A stretch of 51,072 nucleotides of DNA from Deltaproteobacteria bacterium (GTDB taxonomy: Bacteria; Desulfobacterota; Desulfobulbia; Desulfobulbales; Desulfurivibrionaceae), in the NCBI GenBank assembly GCA_021802645.1, contig JAJZRO010000007.1, forward strand, positions 1 to 51,072. The letters run 5' to 3'. A program made the translations under genes and the position numbers. The notes under the pieces were generated by a model. That model saw only the letters and a program-made list of their open reading frames with translations, searched no databases and was not told where the DNA came from. Within the stretch, counting starts at the first letter, position 1. Each line of letters begins with the position of its first letter. Shown piece after piece: positions 15,992 through 24,976 of the stretch.

Positions 15992-17554
15992 TTACCCCTC
16001 ATCCTTGTTGGCCGTCGCTACCGGCAGCAAGACATGGAAGGCGGTCCGCATACCCACCGCCGTGAGTTCCGGGTCTTCCGGCGGCGAATGCGCCTCGATG
16101 CGGCCGTTGTGGTCGTTGATGATGCCGAAGGAAACGGAGAGCCCCAGCCCCGTGCCTTTGCCCACTCCCTTGGTGGTGAAGAAGGGATCGAAGATCCGAC
16201 CCATCACCTCGGGGGAGATGCCGCTGCCGCTGTCGCCGACGATGATTTCCACCTTCCCCTGCTCGGGGCGATAGCGGCTCCAGACCCCGACGATGCCCTC
16301 TTCGCCGATGGCGTGGTGGGCATTGGTGAGCAGGTTGACAAACACCTGCCGGAGCCGTTCCGGATCGAAGAGGACCGGTGGGATGCCGCTGGCCAGGCAG
16401 CGGTGGATGAAGATGTGATCCATGTTGAGGGTGTGTTCGACGATGGCGAGCACTTCCTCGAGGCAGCGGTTGATATCGCCGGGCTGCATCTGCTGTTCCG
16501 CCGAGGGATGGGAGAACTTGAGCAGATCGGCCACGATGCGGCGGCAGATCTTGGTGTGCTTCTCGATGATGGCCAGCGTCTCATGCACCTCGGCGTTGTC
16601 TTCGAAGTCCTCGGCCAGAAGTTGGGTATAGCCGAGGATGATGCCAAGCGGGGTATTGATTTCGTGGGCCACGCCGGCGGCCAACTGGCCCACCGAGGTC
16701 ATCTTTTCCGATTGGATGAGCTGGTCGGTCATCTTCTTGAAGTGGGAGAGGTCGATGGCGATGACCTGGCAGCCCTCGAATTCTCCCGCCGTGTTGCGCA
16801 TGGCCGCGGCAGTGAGCATGAGATAGCGCCTGGCGTCGTTCGGTCCCTTGAGTTGGCATTCGAAGCCCTTGACGTGGCCGCGCGTCAGGAGTTCCTCCCG
16901 GAAGCGGGCACCTTTTTCCGGATTGAGGAAGAAGCTGGCAAAGGGCCGGCCGATCACCACTTCCCGGTCGGCAATGCCCAGGAAATCGAGGCCGCTGTCG
17001 TTGATGTCGCAGATCATCCCCTGCTGGTCGCAGAAGAGGATCATGTCCTTGGACGACTCGAACAGGCTGCGGAATTTCGCCTCGGAGAGCCGGAGCTCCT
17101 GGGTGCGGCGTTCCACCCGTTCTTCGAGGGTCTGGTTGAGCTGACCGAGCGCCGTATGCGCCGCGGCCAGCTCGCTGTGGGCGTGGCGCAGGGCCTCGGC
17201 CTCGCGTTGGCCGGAGGCGACCACCTGGTCGGTATGGTAGTAATAGAAGGTGACCACCGCCGCGGCACAGAAGGCCAGGGTATTGATGCCGCCGCTGTAA
17301 GGCCTCAGGCTCTGCCAGATCTCCGTATGGCCGCCCAGGATGAAGAGATAGCGCAGGAGATGCCAGAGGCTGCGGGAGACCGCCAGCGCGGTGAGGGTGA
17401 GAGTGAGCCAGAAAAAAAAGGTCCAGAGAAAATTGGCGGGTTCGAGCCGTTGGAGACGCCGGGCATGGAGGAAGGCCGAGAAGGTCAGCAGGATCATGAT
17501 CCCGGAGCCTACGGAATCAACCAGGTAGATCGGCAGCAGCGGCAGGTTGATCAT
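15992..17554 (-). CDS. PAS-containing membrane histidine kinase, copy 2 of duplicated module
   Basis: A 520-residue kinase. Residues 1-105 form the same three-helix membrane domain as the copy 1 kinase (R61, H65, R68, LGGH at 73-76, WQ at 80-81, INTL at 90-93). Then come a coiled coil (110-155), a PAS domain (about 156-275) and a HisKA/HATPase core with LAAGVAHEINTP (H297), LLTNAHHAI, GDSGSGI and GTGLGLSVS. The start is ATG 17554, overlapping the stop of the upstream His-rich membrane protein by 4 bases. The extra PAS domain is the main difference from copy 1 and could add a cytosolic redox or ligand input (inference). Confidence 0.92.
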   Translation of the reverse strand: MINLPLLPIYLVDSVGSGIMILLTFSAFLHARRLQRLEPANFLWTFFFWLTLTLTALAVSRSLWHLLRYLFILGGHTEIWQSLRPYSGGINTLAFCAAAVVTFYYYHTDQVVASGQREAEALRHAHSELAAAHTALGQLNQTLEERVERRTQELRLSEAKFRSLFESSKDMILFCDQQGMICDINDSGLDFLGIADREVVIGRPFASFFLNPEKGARFREELLTRGHVKGFECQLKGPNDARRYLMLTAAAMRNTAGEFEGCQVIAIDLSHFKKMTDQLIQSEKMTSVGQLAAGVAHEINTPLGIILGYTQLLAEDFEDNAEVHETLAIIEKHTKICRRIVADLLKFSHPSAEQQMQPGDINRCLEEVLAIVEHTLNMDHIFIHRCLASGIPPVLFDPERLRQVFVNLLTNAHHAIGEEGIVGVWSRYRPEQGKVEIIVGDSGSGISPEVMGRIFDPFFTTKGVGKGTGLGLSVSFGIINDHNGRIEAHSPPEDPELTAVGMRTAFHVLLPVATANKDEG

Positions 17555-18075
17555 GACGGTCGCGGCGTCGAAGGCGTCGGGGACTGCCGGGTCGCGGCGA
17601 CATCGCCGAGGCCCTTGAGGCTCAAGGCCAGAAACCAGGCCGCCGGCACGCAGAGCAGATGATCGAGGCTGCCGATATAATAGAAGAGCCAAGGCCACGA
17701 GGCCGGCAGCAGGACGCGGTCCCCGGCCAGAGTGGCGCCGGCGATGAAGGCCTCGTTGGGCAACCGTTCCGTCAGCCAGTGGATTGCCATGGTGTCGAGG
17801 TCCCAGAGCAGAAAGAGCAGCAGGGAAAGTTGCAGGTGGCGCCACGGTTTGCCGGTGCCGGGCGGACGTTGGCGGAGCAGGTGCAGCAGGAAGATGAGGG
17901 CGGCGCCGAGGAAGAGGTGGCCCATCTGGTGGACCAGATAGCCCTCGGGGCCACCATGGGCTTGGACCGCCCAGGCGGAGGAGGGGGCCAGGGTCATGGC
18001 CAGCGCGATCAGGCCCGGCAGGGCCCGAGGCGAAGCGGCGAGGCGGTGCCACCGCGTCCTATGTCCGCGCTGCAT
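17551..18075 (-). CDS. His-rich membrane protein, sensor-module partner (copy 2)
   Basis: A 174-residue protein with a signal-like segment (LPGLIALAMTLA... ending SAWAVQA) and three further membrane segments. Conserved His residues H40 (AHGG), H49 and H53 (HQMGH), H99 (IHW) and H139 (LDHLLCVPA) match those of copy 1 in context and spacing. The family is not recognised. There is no good ribosome site before ATG 18075; an in-frame GTG at 18084 is an alternative, and a promoter-like element ends only a few bases upstream, so the mRNA may have a very short or no leader. Divergent from the sigma-54 activator and coupled to the PAS kinase downstream. Confidence 0.7.
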   Translation of the reverse strand: MQRGHRTRWHRLAASPRALPGLIALAMTLAPSSAWAVQAHGGPEGYLVHQMGHLFLGAALIFLLHLLRQRPPGTGKPWRHLQLSLLLFLLWDLDTMAIHWLTERLPNEAFIAGATLAGDRVLLPASWPWLFYYIGSLDHLLCVPAAWFLALSLKGLGDVAATRQSPTPSTPRPS

Positions 18076-18120: not shown

Positions 18121-18297
18121 GGGCATATCCTCCGGCGGAAAATGGCCCGGCATCCGGGACATCCCGCCTTGGTAACTCCCCTTGGTCTGCCGGAACGGCG
18201 CCGAGGAGACAGGCTTTTCTATGGTTATCTCTTGCATTTTTTCGCGCGCTGGGCCATTCCATAAAGGATGGAGACGGACCAAAAAGGAGAGAAACCG

Positions 18298-19737
18298 TTG
18301 CCGGAAACGATGAGAGACCCTGCCGGGGCACCGCGGGTGCTGCTGGTCGACGACGATACCGACATGCTGGCCATGCTGACCCGCCTGCTGCAGCGCAAGT
18401 GCGCCTGCCAGGTGGAGACGGCGGTGGCCGGCGACCGGGCATTGGCCATGATCGAGGAGTGGCGGCCCGACGTGGTGGTCACCGACATCAAGATGCCGGG
18501 ACTGGACGGCATGGCACTGCTGGCCAGGGTGAAGGCGTCCCTGCCGGCGGTTTCGGTGATCGTGATGACCGGTTACGGCAACGTGGAACTGGCGGTGCAG
18601 GCGCTCAAGGCCGGGGCCTATGACTTTATCGAAAAGCCCTTCGACAAGGAGCGGATCGTTCACAGCCTGGAGCGCTGTCTCGAGCGGGTGCGGCTGCTCA
18701 GGAAAAACCAGCAGCTCGAGGCGCAACTGGCCGACAAAACCAGCTTTGCCGGTTTTCAGGGGCGCTCACCACGGATGCAGGAGGTGTTCGCGCTGATCAA
18801 GAAGGTGGCGGACACCGACGTGACCGTGCTGGTCCGGGGGGAATCGGGCACCGGCAAGGAGTTGGTCGCGCGCGCTCTGCATGCCTTGAGCCGGCGGGCC
18901 GGCCGGCCGCTGGTGACGGTAAACTGTCCCGCCTTGCCGGAACCGATCCTGGAAAGCGAACTCTTTGGCCACGCCAAGGGCGCCTTCACCGGCGCGGTCC
19001 AGGAAAAGAAGGGGCTTTTTCAGGAAGCCGACGGCTCGACGCTCCTGCTCGACGAGATCGGCGACCTGCCGCCGGCGCTCCAGACCAAACTGCTGCGGGT
19101 GTTGCAGGAAAAGGAGATCATGCCCCTCGGCCAGACCCGGACCATGGCCGTGGATGTGCGGGTGGTGGCCTCGACCAACCAGGACCTGGAGGCGAAGATC
19201 CGGCAGGGGTGCTTCCGGGAGGATCTCTTCTACCGACTCAACGTGGTGACCGTGGAGATGCCGCCCTTGCGGGAGCGGCCCGAGGACATCCCCCTGTTGG
19301 CCCGCCATTTCCTTGCCAAGTATGCGGCCGAGTATGGGCGCGGCGACTTGGGCCTGGCGCCGGAGGCGGAGCAGCTCTTGCTGCAACGGCCTTGGCCCGG
19401 CAATGTGCGCGAGTTGCAGAACGTGATGAAGCGGGCGGTGTTGCTTGCCGCTGGTTCGACCATCGGGCCGGCCGATCTGAGCGGCGGTCCGTCCGCGGCC
19501 CCGGCCAACGGGCAGATGCGGCTGCCATCCCTCCACCACCTGCCTTACGGCGCGGCCAAGCATGAACTGCTGGCCCAATTTTCCCGCGACTACCTTGAGC
19601 AGGCCCTGCGGGCAACGCACGGCAACGTGACCGCTGCCGCCCAGGCGAGCGGCATCGGCCGCCAGGCCTTTCAGCGGTTGCTGCGGCGTTTCGGCCTGGA
19701 CGCCGAAAGCTTTCGTCTCGAGCCGCCCGGTGTCTGA
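18298..19737 (+). CDS. NtrC-family sigma-54-dependent response regulator
   Basis: Receiver-AAA+-Fis activator (479 aa from TTG 18298). The receiver has VLLVDDDTD and the phosphoacceptor in VVTDIKMPG. The central AAA+ domain has Walker A GESGTGKE and an intact GAFTGA loop for sigma-54 contact, plus LLLDEIGDLP. The C-terminal Fis-type helix-turn-helix contains GNVTAAAQASGIGRQAF. I prefer TTG 18298 because AAGGAG lies 8 bases upstream; ATG 18268 in the same frame lacks a spaced ribosome site and would add 10 residues. It is divergent from the copy 2 sensor module and lies upstream of the split TSUP permease; its kinase is probably one of the two neighbours (inference). Confidence 0.93.
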   Translation: MPETMRDPAGAPRVLLVDDDTDMLAMLTRLLQRKCACQVETAVAGDRALAMIEEWRPDVVVTDIKMPGLDGMALLARVKASLPAVSVIVMTGYGNVELAVQALKAGAYDFIEKPFDKERIVHSLERCLERVRLLRKNQQLEAQLADKTSFAGFQGRSPRMQEVFALIKKVADTDVTVLVRGESGTGKELVARALHALSRRAGRPLVTVNCPALPEPILESELFGHAKGAFTGAVQEKKGLFQEADGSTLLLDEIGDLPPALQTKLLRVLQEKEIMPLGQTRTMAVDVRVVASTNQDLEAKIRQGCFREDLFYRLNVVTVEMPPLRERPEDIPLLARHFLAKYAAEYGRGDLGLAPEAEQLLLQRPWPGNVRELQNVMKRAVLLAAGSTIGPADLSGGPSAAPANGQMRLPSLHHLPYGAAKHELLAQFSRDYLEQALRATHGNVTAAAQASGIGRQAFQRLLRRFGLDAESFRLEPPGV

Positions 19738-20150: not shown

Positions 20151-21482
20151 ATGATGCAGAGGAAGTTCCGAGGGGTTCCGTTTCTGGCGTTGGTTATGGT
20201 CTTATTCCTGGGCATTCCCTGGAGCGTTGCTGCGGCCGTCCCGGGGAGCCCGCAAGCTGCCGCTGCGGCAATCCCGCCGCCCCCACCTCCCTCCGCTGCC
20301 AAGGCCCCCACCGTGGTGCTCGATAAAACCACGCTGGCCAATGGTGGCGAGATCACCGTCACCGGCCAGGCGCCCGCCGGCGCCCAGGTCTATGTCGAGG
20401 TCTATGCCGCCGACAAGCAGGTGCGGGCCAACCGCTTCGACAGCAAGAGGGATCCCAAGACCGGCAAGATTCCCTACAAGTTTTACCTGACCCACGAGAT
20501 GCCCGCCTTTTATAAGATCCTGGTGCCGAAGGAGATGGCCGGCGAACTGGACAAGGCCAAGGCCGCAGGCAAGGGGTGGAAATACTCCGAGACGCTGAAG
20601 GCCACCGGCGCAAATGCCGCCTACAATGCCCCGGCCAAGATGAAGATCGACAGCTACCAGGCCACCATCATGGCCAGCATCATCGGCTCGCGCGGCACCC
20701 TGCTCGCACCGATGGATGAAAAGGCGAGCAAGAGCGAGTCGATGAAGCTGGTCAAGGGCCGCTTCCGCAGCGTGGGCAAGCTCCTGGAGGCCAATGTCGA
20801 GGTCACCCCGGCCGGCGCTTACACCGCCAAGATCAAGCTGCCCACCGGTCAGGCCCCTGGCAAATACAACGTGACCGTCACCGCGGTGACCGAGCGGCTC
20901 AAGGAAGGCGACAAGGAGACGGTCAAGAAGGTCAAGGGGGAGGCCTCCTTCGAGAACACCATTGCCTTGCCTTATGTGTACCTCGGCTCGGCCGGCACCA
21001 GCCTCAATCTGCTGTGGCCGTTCCTGCTCTGCCTGGTCATCTCCATCTTCGGCGTGCTGATGGGCGCCGGCGGCGGCTTTATCCTGAACCCGATCCTGGT
21101 CTCGCTCTTCCCCCTGCCGCACACCATCGTGGCCGGCACCGTCATGCCCACCGTGCTCTTTTCCCAGGGCAGCGGCATCTACAACTACTCCAAGATCAAG
21201 TTCATCAACTGGAAGCTGGGGATCACCATCGGCTGCGCCATGATGGTGGGTGGTTTCATCGGCCCCAAGTTGACCGAGATGATCACCCTCGACCAGTTCA
21301 AGTTCGTCTTTGGCTGGATCCTCCTGGTACTGGCGGCGCTGATGTTCTGGCAGACCACCGCTGGCTATCTCGAGAAAAACAAGAAGGAACAGGCCATTTT
21401 GAAGGAGTTTAGGAAGCGGGCCGAGGAATGCGCGAAGCGTGGCGAGAGCGGCACTGCCGCCTGCCCGACGGACCAGAAATAG
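20151..21482 (+). CDS. TSUP-type half-permease with large exported N-terminal domain
   Basis: A 443-residue protein: signal peptide (1-29), Pro/Ala linker (PPPPPPSAAK), a roughly 230-residue exported domain with Ig- or carboxypeptidase-like beta features (VVLDKTTLANGGEITVTG; GQAPGKYNVTVTAV), then four membrane helices from about 283 that correspond to one repeat of a TauE/SafE permease (motif GAGGGFILNP, then VAGTVMPTVLFSQ). Ordinary TSUP permeases have two such repeats in one chain (about 250-300 aa). Here the second repeat is a separate gene 26 bases downstream. The family exports sulfite, sulfoacetate and related anions; the substrate here is unknown. AAGGAG precedes the ATG by 6 bases. 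Confidence 0.85.
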   Translation: MMQRKFRGVPFLALVMVLFLGIPWSVAAAVPGSPQAAAAAIPPPPPPSAAKAPTVVLDKTTLANGGEITVTGQAPAGAQVYVEVYAADKQVRANRFDSKRDPKTGKIPYKFYLTHEMPAFYKILVPKEMAGELDKAKAAGKGWKYSETLKATGANAAYNAPAKMKIDSYQATIMASIIGSRGTLLAPMDEKASKSESMKLVKGRFRSVGKLLEANVEVTPAGAYTAKIKLPTGQAPGKYNVTVTAVTERLKEGDKETVKKVKGEASFENTIALPYVYLGSAGTSLNLLWPFLLCLVISIFGVLMGAGGGFILNPILVSLFPLPHTIVAGTVMPTVLFSQGSGIYNYSKIKFINWKLGITIGCAMMVGGFIGPKLTEMITLDQFKFVFGWILLVLAALMFWQTTAGYLEKNKKEQAILKEFRKRAEECAKRGESGTAACPTDQK

Positions 21483-21508
21483 CAACCATCACCGGGAGGC
21501 ATCCTGTC

Positions 21509-21898
21509 ATGAAAGTAGAATTCTGGGGCCACGAGTTCGAGGCCAATCTGTTTGTCGGTTGTATCGGCGGGTTTCTCATTGCCATCATGTCCTCCATGTT
21601 CGGCTTTGGCGGCGGCCCGTTCATGGTGCCGCTGATGACCGTCGGCATGGGACTGCCCATGTACATCGTGGTGGGCAGCTCGCTGCTCGCCATCTTCTTC
21701 AATACGGCCATGGGCACCCTGCGCCATATGCAGTTCGGCAATTTCGACCTGGTGTTTTTTCTCTCCATGTTTCCGGCCGCCTTGCTGGGCGGCTACATTG
21801 GTCCGCAGATCGCCAAGAAGGTGAGCCCGATCGTGGTCAAGCGCATCGCCTGTGCAGGCTTGGCGCTGCTGGGTCTCAATCTGTTGGGCCTTTATTGA
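21509..21898 (+). CDS. TSUP-type half-permease, second half
   Basis: A 129-residue membrane protein with about four helices and the TSUP signature FGFGGGPFMVPLM, then VVGSSLLAIFFNT and LLGGYIGPQIAKK. It corresponds to one half of a TauE/SafE-type permease and has its own ribosome site (GGGAGG) and ATG, so it is not a frameshift fragment; the upstream gene also ends in a natural charged cytosolic tail. It presumably pairs with the product of 20151-21482 to build a complete pore (inference). Confidence 0.85.
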   Translation: MKVEFWGHEFEANLFVGCIGGFLIAIMSSMFGFGGGPFMVPLMTVGMGLPMYIVVGSSLLAIFFNTAMGTLRHMQFGNFDLVFFLSMFPAALLGGYIGPQIAKKVSPIVVKRIACAGLALLGLNLLGLY

Positions 21899-21985: not shown

Positions 21986-22348
21986 ATGGCGCATATCCTG
22001 GTGCTGGACGACGTGCCCGAGGCCGGCATGCTGGTGCAGAAAATCCTCGGCAAAAAAGGCCATGCGGTGGTCGCCTTTACCGGCGAGGAGGAGGCCCTGG
22101 CCTATGCGCGGCACCACCGGATCGACCTCGCCATCCTCGACATCAAGCTGAAGAGGATGAGCGGGATTGCGGTACTGGCGGAGTTGAAAAAGATGGACCC
22201 GGCCATGCGGGTGATCATGCTCACCGGGTACCCGACGGTGCAGACCGCCCAGCAGGCGAGAACTCTCGGGGCCGACGACTACTGCGTCAAGCCCTTGGAC
22301 AAGGAAGAACTCGAAACGAAGGTCAGTGCGGTAATCGGCGCGGCATGA
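21986..22348 (+). CDS. Single-domain response regulator (copy 2)
   Basis: A 120-residue receiver with D8/D9, phosphoacceptor D52 (AILDIKLK), T80 and K102 (YCVKPLD). It is collinear with the receiver at 15611-15985 and about 53% identical by count. It has a GAGGAGG ribosome site. It lies between the split permease and the molybdopterin enzyme, with no kinase adjacent on this side, so the orphan regulator may serve the copy 1 kinase at 14367-15491, which lacks an adjacent regulator on its own strand (inference). Confidence 0.92.
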   Translation: MAHILVLDDVPEAGMLVQKILGKKGHAVVAFTGEEEALAYARHHRIDLAILDIKLKRMSGIAVLAELKKMDPAMRVIMLTGYPTVQTAQQARTLGADDYCVKPLDKEELETKVSAVIGAA

Positions 22349-22409: not shown

Positions 22410-24527
22410 ATGACAACACGATCGGTGTGGAGCATGTGCGGCATGTGTACGGTTCGGTGCCCGATCCGGGTGGAGACCGAGGGCGACGAGGTCACCTGGA
22501 TCGAAGGCAATCCGCATCTGCTGGAGGGCGCCTTGTGCGCCAAGGGTTCGGCCGGCATGGCGTTGCTCAAGGACGAAGAGCGGCCGCTGTCGCCGATGAT
22601 CCGCAAAGGCGGACGCGGCGCCGGCCGGTGGGAGCGGGTGAGCTGGTATGCGGCCCTCGACTACGTGGCCGATAAATTGAACGCCATCATCAAGGAGCAC
22701 GGGCCGGAGAGCATCATGATGAGCTGCCGCGGCGGCCCCTTCATGGACCTCATCAAGGCCTTCTGCCATGCGGTCGGCTCCCCCAACTTCAGCAACCATG
22801 ACAGCGCCTGCGGCCGCAACGTGCACCATGCGAGTCTCTCGGTCTACGGCCTGGGCCGCAAGGACTTTGTCTACGATCTCAAGAAGTGCAAACACCTCAT
22901 CCTCTTCGGCCGCAACATCCTCGCCTCCCTGCGGCCGGCGGAGGTGAATCAGGTGATGGACATGCTGGATGCCGGCGGCACCATGACCTATGTCGATGTT
23001 CGCCAGACGCTGACCGGCATCAAGGCCGACCGCTTCTTCCTGGTGACGCCGGGTACGGATTACGCCCTGGCCCTGGGCATGATCCACGAGGTGATCAAGC
23101 AGGGGGTCTACGACCAGGAATTCATCGACCGCTACGTCGCCGACTTCGACAAGCTGGTCGCCTTTGTCGAGCCCTACACCGCCGACTGGGCCGCCAAGGA
23201 ATGCGGGGTCAAGGCGGATCGCATCAAGGAGTTCGTCACCGAGATCGGGAGTCAGCGGCCCAAGGTGGTCTTCCATCCGGGCTGGATGCTCTCGCGCTAC
23301 CGTGACTCCTTCTATGCCAGCCGGGCGCTCCATATCTTGAACGTGCTCATGGGCAACGTCGAGGTGGAAGGCGGCCAGATCTTCGCCAAGGGGGCGGGCG
23401 ATTGCGGGGTGAAGGGCATCCGCAGTCTGGATGCCCAGGTGCCCAAGCCGACGGCGAAAAGGGCCGACGGGGTAGGCTGGAAATACCAGCACTTCGACAA
23501 GGGGCCGGGGCTCTTTCACCTCTTCTACGATGCCATGCTGACCGGCGAGCCTTATCCGCTCAAGGCGCTCATCTGCATGCGCCATGATCCCTTCACCTGC
23601 TTTCCGGACCCGCAGGCCCAGAAGGAGGCGCTGGACAAGCTCGACCTGCTGGTCTCGGTGGATACCCATTACAGTGAGTTCGGCTGGTACAGTGACGTCA
23701 TCCTGCCCGAATCCACCTTCCTGGAGCGCGACAGCATCATTGCGACGCAAAAGGGGCCCAAACCGCGGTTCATCAAGCGCAACAAGGCGATTGCGCCCAT
23801 GCACGACACCAAGAGCCTCTACGAGATCATCAAGCAGCTCGCCGACCGCCTCGGCGTGGGCCAGTATTTCCCCGGCAGTTCCATTGAGGAGCTGTGGGCG
23901 TGGCAGCTCGAACCCACCGGTTTTAGCCTCAAGGACTTTGACGCCAAGGGATTCATCTCGCTTACCGACAAGCCGGTGATGTTCGACCGCAACCACCTCG
24001 ACGGCAAGTTCAAGACGCCCTCGGGCAAGATCGAGATGGTGAGCGGGAAACTCACCGAAGCGGGGCTCGAGTCGCTCAAACCCTACGAGAGCCCGGAGAA
24101 GCCGCCCAAGGGGCACTTCCGGCTGGTCTTCGGGCGGTCGCCGGTCCATGCCCACAGCCACACGGTCAACAACCCGCTGCTTTACGAGTTGATGCCGGAG
24201 AATACCCTGTGGATCAACAAGCGGCAGGCGGCCAGACTGGGCGTCAACGACGGCGACCTGGTCGACGTGGGAGTCTGCGGTTGCAGCGGCACCATCAAGG
24301 CCCACCTCACCGAGTTCATCCACCCGGAGGCGGTGTACATGGCGCATGGCTTCGGCCGGCAGGTCCCGCTGCAAAGCCGGGCCTACCATGCCGGCATGGC
24401 GGATCAGAAACTGATGAAGGGCATGCTCCAGGAGATGGACCCGGCGGGCGGCGGCCTCAACCTCTGCGAGTGCTTCGTCACCGTGCGCCGCAGCGCCAAG
24501 AACCCGAAGCGGATGGTGGAACTATGA
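22410..24527 (+). CDS. Molybdopterin oxidoreductase catalytic subunit
   Basis: A 705-residue protein of the DMSO-reductase superfamily binding a bis-pyranopterin Mo or W cofactor. The N-terminal [4Fe-4S] site is C10, C13, C17, C43 (SMCGMCTVRCP; GALCAKG). Cys134 (HDSACGRNVHH) is in the position of the metal ligand in the Cys-liganded group (polysulfide/thiosulfate and related enzymes). The C-terminal cofactor-binding domain contains FGRSPVHAHSHTVNNP. There is no Tat signal, so a cytoplasmic location is expected. The substrate cannot be named. It overlaps the ferredoxin gene by 4 bases. No membrane anchor subunit follows. Confidence 0.92.
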   Translation: MTTRSVWSMCGMCTVRCPIRVETEGDEVTWIEGNPHLLEGALCAKGSAGMALLKDEERPLSPMIRKGGRGAGRWERVSWYAALDYVADKLNAIIKEHGPESIMMSCRGGPFMDLIKAFCHAVGSPNFSNHDSACGRNVHHASLSVYGLGRKDFVYDLKKCKHLILFGRNILASLRPAEVNQVMDMLDAGGTMTYVDVRQTLTGIKADRFFLVTPGTDYALALGMIHEVIKQGVYDQEFIDRYVADFDKLVAFVEPYTADWAAKECGVKADRIKEFVTEIGSQRPKVVFHPGWMLSRYRDSFYASRALHILNVLMGNVEVEGGQIFAKGAGDCGVKGIRSLDAQVPKPTAKRADGVGWKYQHFDKGPGLFHLFYDAMLTGEPYPLKALICMRHDPFTCFPDPQAQKEALDKLDLLVSVDTHYSEFGWYSDVILPESTFLERDSIIATQKGPKPRFIKRNKAIAPMHDTKSLYEIIKQLADRLGVGQYFPGSSIEELWAWQLEPTGFSLKDFDAKGFISLTDKPVMFDRNHLDGKFKTPSGKIEMVSGKLTEAGLESLKPYESPEKPPKGHFRLVFGRSPVHAHSHTVNNPLLYELMPENTLWINKRQAARLGVNDGDLVDVGVCGCSGTIKAHLTEFIHPEAVYMAHGFGRQVPLQSRAYHAGMADQKLMKGMLQEMDPAGGGLNLCECFVTVRRSAKNPKRMVEL

Positions 24528-24976
24528 ATAAATACATGCTCTATCTCAATTCCAAACGGTGCATCGGCTGTCATGGCTGCGAGGTTCACTGCAAGACCAA
24601 CAAACGGCTGCCGGAAGGGCCGCTCCTCTGCGAAATCAGCCATGAGCCGTTGAAGATGGTGGGCGGCGTGCCCAAGACCGAGTTCCAGTTCCGTTCCTGT
24701 TACCATTGCGAGGAGCCGTACTGCGTGCCGGTCTGCCCCACCGGGGCCATGCAGAAGCGGGCCGACGGCATCGTCTTTGTGGAGCAGGAAAAGTGTATCG
24801 GCTGCATGGCGTGTGTCGGGGCCTGTCCGTGGGGGGTGCCGCAGCACAACCCCGCCACCGGCAAGGTGGTCAAATGCGACTACTGCCTTGATCGCGTGGA
24901 TGCCGGTCTCAAGCCGGCCTGCGTCACCCGTTGCACCACCCATGCCCTGAAATTCGTTACCCTCACGGAGTTGTAG
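24524..24976 (+). CDS. Ferredoxin-type electron-transfer subunit (four [4Fe-4S])
   Basis: A 150-residue DmsB/PsrB-like subunit. Cysteine groups are CIGCHGCEVHC, CYHCEEPYCVPVCP, CIGCMACVGACP and CDYC...CVTRC, enough for four [4Fe-4S] clusters. It is translationally coupled (ATGA) to the molybdopterin subunit, so it should pass electrons to or from that enzyme. No signal sequence. A strong terminator 35 bases later closes the transcription unit, confirming that no NrfD-type anchor is co-transcribed. Confidence 0.93.
   Translation: MNKYMLYLNSKRCIGCHGCEVHCKTNKRLPEGPLLCEISHEPLKMVGGVPKTEFQFRSCYHCEEPYCVPVCPTGAMQKRADGIVFVEQEKCIGCMACVGACPWGVPQHNPATGKVVKCDYCLDRVDAGLKPACVTRCTTHALKFVTLTEL

Follow-up and report, generated by a model that had tools for sequence, protein, structure and literature searches.

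A TauE/SafE (TSUP) permease encoded as two half-genes, one of them fused to an exported domain, in Desulfobacterota and Nitrospirota

The window, i.e., the whole stretch of 51,072 nucleotides analyzed here, contains on the forward strand two adjacent genes that encode complementary halves of a TauE/SafE (TSUP) permease. ORF A (20151-21482, + strand, 443 aa) starts with a signal peptide of about 29 residues (20151-20237, with the cleavage site placed by eye); in the AlphaFold model, a helix spans residues 9-20 and is followed by a low-confidence Ala/Pro-rich linker. The rest of the protein consists of an exported domain some 235 residues long (approximately residues 50-285, 20298-21005; pLDDT mostly >90, supported also by structure alignment), the N-terminal TSUP half (21006-21353) with the motif GAGGG-x4-P at residues 305-314 (21063-21092), and a Lys/Arg-rich C-terminal tail (21354-21479) that corresponds to the beginning of the linker between the repeats in single-chain relatives. 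The intergenic gap is 26 bases long and includes a ribosome-binding site, GGGAGG (21494-21499), which ends 9 bases before the ATG of gene B. The latter (21509-21898, + strand, 129 aa) is read in a different frame from A and encodes the C-terminal TSUP half, with the motif GFGGG-x4-P at residues 32-41 (21602-21631).

The profile pfam01925 (PF01925, cut-off 32.6 bits) aligns with residues 291-409 of A over profile positions 2-114 (E 1.1e-20, 74.7 bits) and with B over positions 127-237 (E 8.6e-23, 81.7 bits), and because these spans are complementary, A and B together amount to one TauE domain. The source genome has nine places with a TauE match, A and B being two of these. The glycines and the proline of both GxGGG-x4-P motifs are invariant in the alignments of A (64 sequences, from 63 of the 80 loci described below and the window) and B (56 sequences, from 55 of 75 loci and the window). 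Thus, the description given in the first-pass annotation, with a signal peptide, an exported region and GAGGG-x4-P in the first gene and a GFGGG-x4-P half with its own ribosome site in the second, is borne out by the sequence, the model and the profile match; neither gene encodes the full set of helices, A being the N-terminal half and B the C-terminal one.

A scan of genome contigs with A confirmed 105 relatives, of which 80 loci, labelled as Desulfobulbales, other deltaproteobacteria or Nitrospirota, were kept. The split arrangement recurs throughout: A is a separate open reading frame in 80/80 loci, and an ORF for B lies downstream of it in 75, including one (L093) where B is truncated at the contig end. 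Three other loci (L030, L072 and L096) show the beginning of B up to the contig end, and the remaining two (L042 and L073) are on contigs that end at or inside A, so that B is present wherever the contig continues past A. A and B are spaced by 2 to 120 bases, not counting three loci where the B frame is extended upstream. The frame relation of B to A is 0, 2 and 1 in 40, 20 and 15 of the 75 loci, respectively, and the occurrence of all three relations means that there is no shared slip. A ribosome-like site precedes B in 72 of the 75 loci, as judged by a loose pattern with no background control. The isolate record of Desulfobulbus elongatus DSM 2908 (L065) also has the split. The different frames of A and B in the window are what a frameshift in a single-chain gene, caused by sequencing or assembly error, would produce, but such an error, which the first-pass annotation had asked to be checked, is rejected by the homologs: it would have to recur at every locus, in many assemblies and in an isolate record, with variable gaps, three frame relations and a ribosome-like site nearly always in place. 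We consider its probability negligible.

Mean column identity is higher in B (80%, 56 sequences) than in A (56%, 64 sequences). Strong purifying selection acts on B, with dN/dS values of 0.05-0.11 in four pairwise comparisons; the corresponding values are 0.06-0.10 in the membrane half of A and 0.14-0.35 in its exported domain. Of the 44 loci that were found through B, 43 have the membrane half of A beside it. In L154, the B locus of genome G133, only the last residues of A are found upstream, followed by unrelated sequence; this genome is 62% complete, and the break is probably a misassembly. Genome G026 has two B copies (contigs C99 and C24, 91% and 85% identity) and an assembly contamination of 7%, and probably represents a mixed bin. 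The two-gene TSUP form is kept in many sulfur-metabolizing bacteria of two phyla, Desulfobacterota and Nitrospirota.

The exported domain of A models as an Ig-like beta-sandwich with a helical insert (approximately residues 127-211, 20529-20783). The description of this region as beta-rich accordingly holds for both ends but not for the middle, which is helical in the AlphaFold model. A VIA-align search with residues 49-273 gives a best Z score of 8.9, to single domains of the Ig-like, FnIII and macroglobulin (MG) types; the rows with Z of at least 8.2 align 91-102 residues with rmsd 2.1-3.4, which may reflect no more than a common arrangement. A Foldseek search with the exported domain produced no match at E <=0.001. 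Most of the Foldseek and VIA-align matches listed are sandwiches of the Ig-like, FnIII, MG or arrestin-like kind; a solute-binding-protein fold is absent among these matches, which is not proof that there is none. Given the Ig-like model and the lack of a solute-binding-protein fold among the matches listed, docking, gating or sensing is the better fit, and the domain most likely has one of these roles rather than that of a classical binding protein. The "substrate-binding or gating domain" proposed previously is thus half supported, gating being a better fit than the role of a binding protein.

A distant kinship of the exported domain with Alph_Pro_TM (PF09608) is plausible from sequence comparison. 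The match of this profile to P0001 is weak (E 0.019, 15.2 bits, cut-off 24.5); among the 64 members of the A family, nine match at E <=1 (the best at 3.6e-5), and the A frame of one relative passes the cut-off with 25.9 bits, with its neighbours in frame. Local profile comparisons of the exported domain with PF09608 are weak in both directions, the hhalign probability is 3%, and no PF09608 match was found in the single-chain proteins scanned. PF09608 matches occur in 38 of 58 relatives. On contig C10 of the source genome, a full TSUP gene (L119:477-1403) is directly followed by a PF09608 gene (1405-2199), so that here the exported domain is provided in trans. Such Alph_Pro_TM and TSUP gene pairs resemble A/B in placing an exported domain beside a TSUP permease, but differ in that the exported domain is a protein of its own and the permease is undivided.

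The four helices per half counted in the first-pass annotation hold only if the first two count as one, since AlphaFold predicts five helical segments per half, and the glycine motif interrupts the first two, which are short. The models of the lone halves are poor (block means of 50-79 pLDDT over most of the membrane half of A and a mean of 62 for B), and a structure search with the B model yielded no useful fold match. Given that A starts outside, an odd number of crossings, or a hairpin formed by the first two segments, would place the tail of A in the cytoplasm and make B antiparallel to A; four crossings would place this tail, with a mean of 7.8 KR and 4.0 DE, in the periplasm. Mean KR/DE counts were obtained for 57 split, 10 single-chain and 6 ordinary TSUP rows. 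In the split set, they are 2.9/0 (h3-h4) and 1.0/1.8 (h4-h5) for the N-terminal half, 10.3/6.6 for the linker, and 1.0/0 (h3-h4) and 4.1/0 (h4-h5) for the C-terminal half. The linker is net positive in all three sets, although it is acid-rich as well, and the ordinary TSUP rows agree with the split set for the linker and the C-terminal half. The h4-h5 loop of the N-terminal half is not a clean fit to the positive-inside rule, with 2.6/0 in the single-chain set and 2.7/1.0 in the ordinary one. Taken together, the charge bias suggests that the A and B halves are antiparallel and that the break falls in a cytoplasmic linker; a cytoplasmic start of B would explain why this protein has no signal peptide.

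Single-chain relatives of A/B are proteins of approximately 550-580 aa (open frames of 548-608) that combine a signal peptide and an exported domain with both TSUP halves. By eye, their linker contains a lysine-rich helix resembling the tail of A, followed by an FWGE motif resembling the start of B, which places the break inside the linker. Among 58 relatives, 29 have the split form (B at >=73% identity), six the single chain and none both. In the phylum sample, the split form (B at >=57% identity) was found in 29 of 395 genomes and the single chain, for which three candidates per genome were scored, in 21, again with no genome having both; four further B matches in this sample, at 34-38% identity, are single chains (frames of 561-597 aa). 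Four families (f3, f11, f12 and f13) and one genus (g18) each include split and single-chain genomes. In a tree of 77 rows, from which the source-genome loci L003 and L006 and locus L136 were left out under a motif filter, the 57 split rows cluster together (94/98) and the 10 single-chain rows cluster separately (99/93), with the caveats that the bootstrap is unsettled and long branches meet. The simplest history would be gene fission within the inter-repeat linker, which is preferred over fusion because ordinary TSUP members are single chains. For the single-chain proteins with an exported domain in Desulfobacterota (L110-L114 and L165-L169), no family name was found. Like A/B, these proteins have a signal peptide, an exported domain and the two halves, and a PhsA-like neighbor is shared as well (9 of 22 loci); they differ from it in being one chain and in an exported domain that is only weakly similar (hhalign 59%, 68 columns). 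Given that the split is ancient, that neither half is seen without the other, and that a single chain replaces the pair in relatives, A and B appear to be obligate partners, and the most fitting reading is an obligate heterodimer that does the job of the single chain. Thus, the obligate partnership proposed in the first-pass annotation gains support, and A and B would probably form a physical heterodimer.

Ordinary TauE/SafE permeases (TSUP, PF01925) contain, like A/B, both halves and both GxGGG-x4-P motifs, but in one chain rather than in two genes, one of which includes an exported domain. The magnetosome protein MamO resembles A in that a TauE domain is joined to an exported one. In MamO, however, the exported domain is trypsin-like (protease-like) and the TauE domain is complete; A has neither, and the MamO profile scores about 11 bits against A and against B (cut-off 800). 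Trypsin-like-TauE fusions resembling MamO are encoded in relatives (L115:3475-5280 and L118:2281-4251), with a magnetochrome match in L115. Also comparable is the antiparallel pair YdgE/YdgF, in which two genes with opposite charge bias, according to PMC3962082, encode the two halves of one unit; this pair belongs to an unrelated family, and in A/B one of the halves carries a large exported domain. No naturally split TSUP is described in the open-licence literature searched (titles and abstract openings), which is not proof of absence, or named in the available parts of PMC5840216 and PMC4641369. Sequence searches with A, with B and with an ordinary TSUP from the source genome matched no solved structure.

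The gene neighborhood bears on the possible substrate. Upstream of A are genes for a sensor histidine kinase (15992-18052, - strand; identified by NCBIfam models, the coordinates being those of the longest ORF, with the true start not fixed) and a sigma-54-dependent response regulator (18268-19737, + strand; PF00158, PF00072), and B is followed by genes for a CheY-like single-domain response regulator (21986-22348, + strand; PF00072), a PhsA-like cytoplasmic molybdopterin oxidoreductase without a leader (22410-24527, + strand; PF00384 and others) and a DmsB-like 4Fe-4S electron-transfer subunit (24524-24976, + strand; PF13247). The kinase and the two regulators recur near A/B, and two-component genes are found beside both the split and the single-chain forms. 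Single-chain genes often have the neighbors known from A/B, namely the PhsA-like molybdoenzyme, its Fe-S subunit and a two-component system. The best NCBIfam family for the molybdoenzyme of the window is PhsA, with 499 bits against a cut-off of 694 and a match that starts at PhsA position 41. The same family is the best for each of the five PhsA-like proteins scanned (499-576 bits, all below 694); the neighbor is PhsA-like, not PhsA.

With MopB-like matches below 40% identity excluded from the neighbor counts, 32 of the 80 loci have a PhsA-like gene (43-83% identity) near A/B, on either side or on the opposite strand. So do 5 of another 12 split loci (L170-L181) and, at >=40% identity, 9 of 22 single-chain loci. 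In the stretch examined, the 40% threshold yields no such gene in 48 of the 80 split and 13 of the 22 single-chain loci, in some cases because the contig ends. The source genome has one PhsA-like gene of this kind, the next best match being at 33%. Some Desulfocapsa-like split loci adjoin genes for AsrA-like and AsrB/sulfhydrogenase-gamma-like proteins (L050:7685-8731 and L052:4883-5716). In the sulfur-disproportionating isolate Desulfolithobacter dissulfuricans, PhsA- and PhsB-type proteins have been reported (PMC9751629). From the neighbors and from known family members, including those cited in PMC5840216, we infer that A/B carries a small sulfur oxyanion. The link to this substrate is circumstantial because many loci show no PhsA-like gene and some have AsrA/AsrB-like neighbors instead.

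The explanation that we consider likely as a whole is that A/B is a two-piece TSUP permease that arose by fission, assembles as a heterodimer and transports a sulfur oxyanion. A and B would be made as separate proteins and come together in the inner membrane as an obligate heterodimer, A starting in the periplasm with its Ig-like domain and ending in the cytoplasm, B running antiparallel to it from a cytoplasmic start to an end outside. Judging by the neighbors, such a carrier would most likely move thiosulfate in or sulfite out; this transport would serve the adjacent PhsA-like cytoplasmic molybdoenzyme and be regulated by the neighboring two-component genes. The same neighborhood can be read differently, with A/B acting as a transceptor in which the exported domain, together with the permease, would signal the presence of periplasmic sulfur compounds to the two-component regulators, so that the histidine kinase, the CheY-like protein and the sigma-54 regulator would control the PhsA-like enzyme. 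The recurrence of two-component genes beside both forms and a large, conserved, Ig-like exported domain are compatible with this function, but these genes may simply regulate transport, and both halves retain an intact GxGGG-x4-P motif, as expected of a working carrier; we regard a transceptor as unlikely.

The possibility that A and B each form homodimers with different roles deserves mention in light of a stand-alone half-size TSUP of 119 aa, which is present in 8 of 58 genomes, including the source genome (contig C17, L182:1501-1860), and implies that half proteins can persist without a fixed partner. Positive charges in both loops of this small protein suggest a possible dual-topology homodimer; among six loci examined, it is located beside a full TSUP in G000 and G001 only. 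In the pair at hand, A corresponds to just the N-terminal and B to just the C-terminal half of PF01925, the two always occur together, and in relatives they are replaced by a chain that contains exactly one of each half, which makes separate homodimers quite improbable. The source genome thus holds three TSUP forms, namely the free half, the A/B pair and whole chains.

Returning to the heterodimeric permease, a more specific proposal can be put forward tentatively, and we rate it as possible but rather doubtful in all its parts at once: TSUP permeases would consist of antiparallel halves, and A/B would be a natural two-piece carrier in which the Ig-like periplasmic domain gates the exchange of sulfur oxyanions with a soluble cytoplasmic enzyme similar to thiosulfate reductase. 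If A/B is indeed a two-piece antiparallel carrier, the assembly and topology of the TSUP family, for which structures are scarce, would become directly testable, with a naturally split member in which the orientation of one half is fixed by an exported domain serving as the handle. The recurrent company of PhsA-like or AsrAB-like genes additionally hints at a transport step that may so far have been missing for bacteria that disproportionate sulfur or reduce sulfate.
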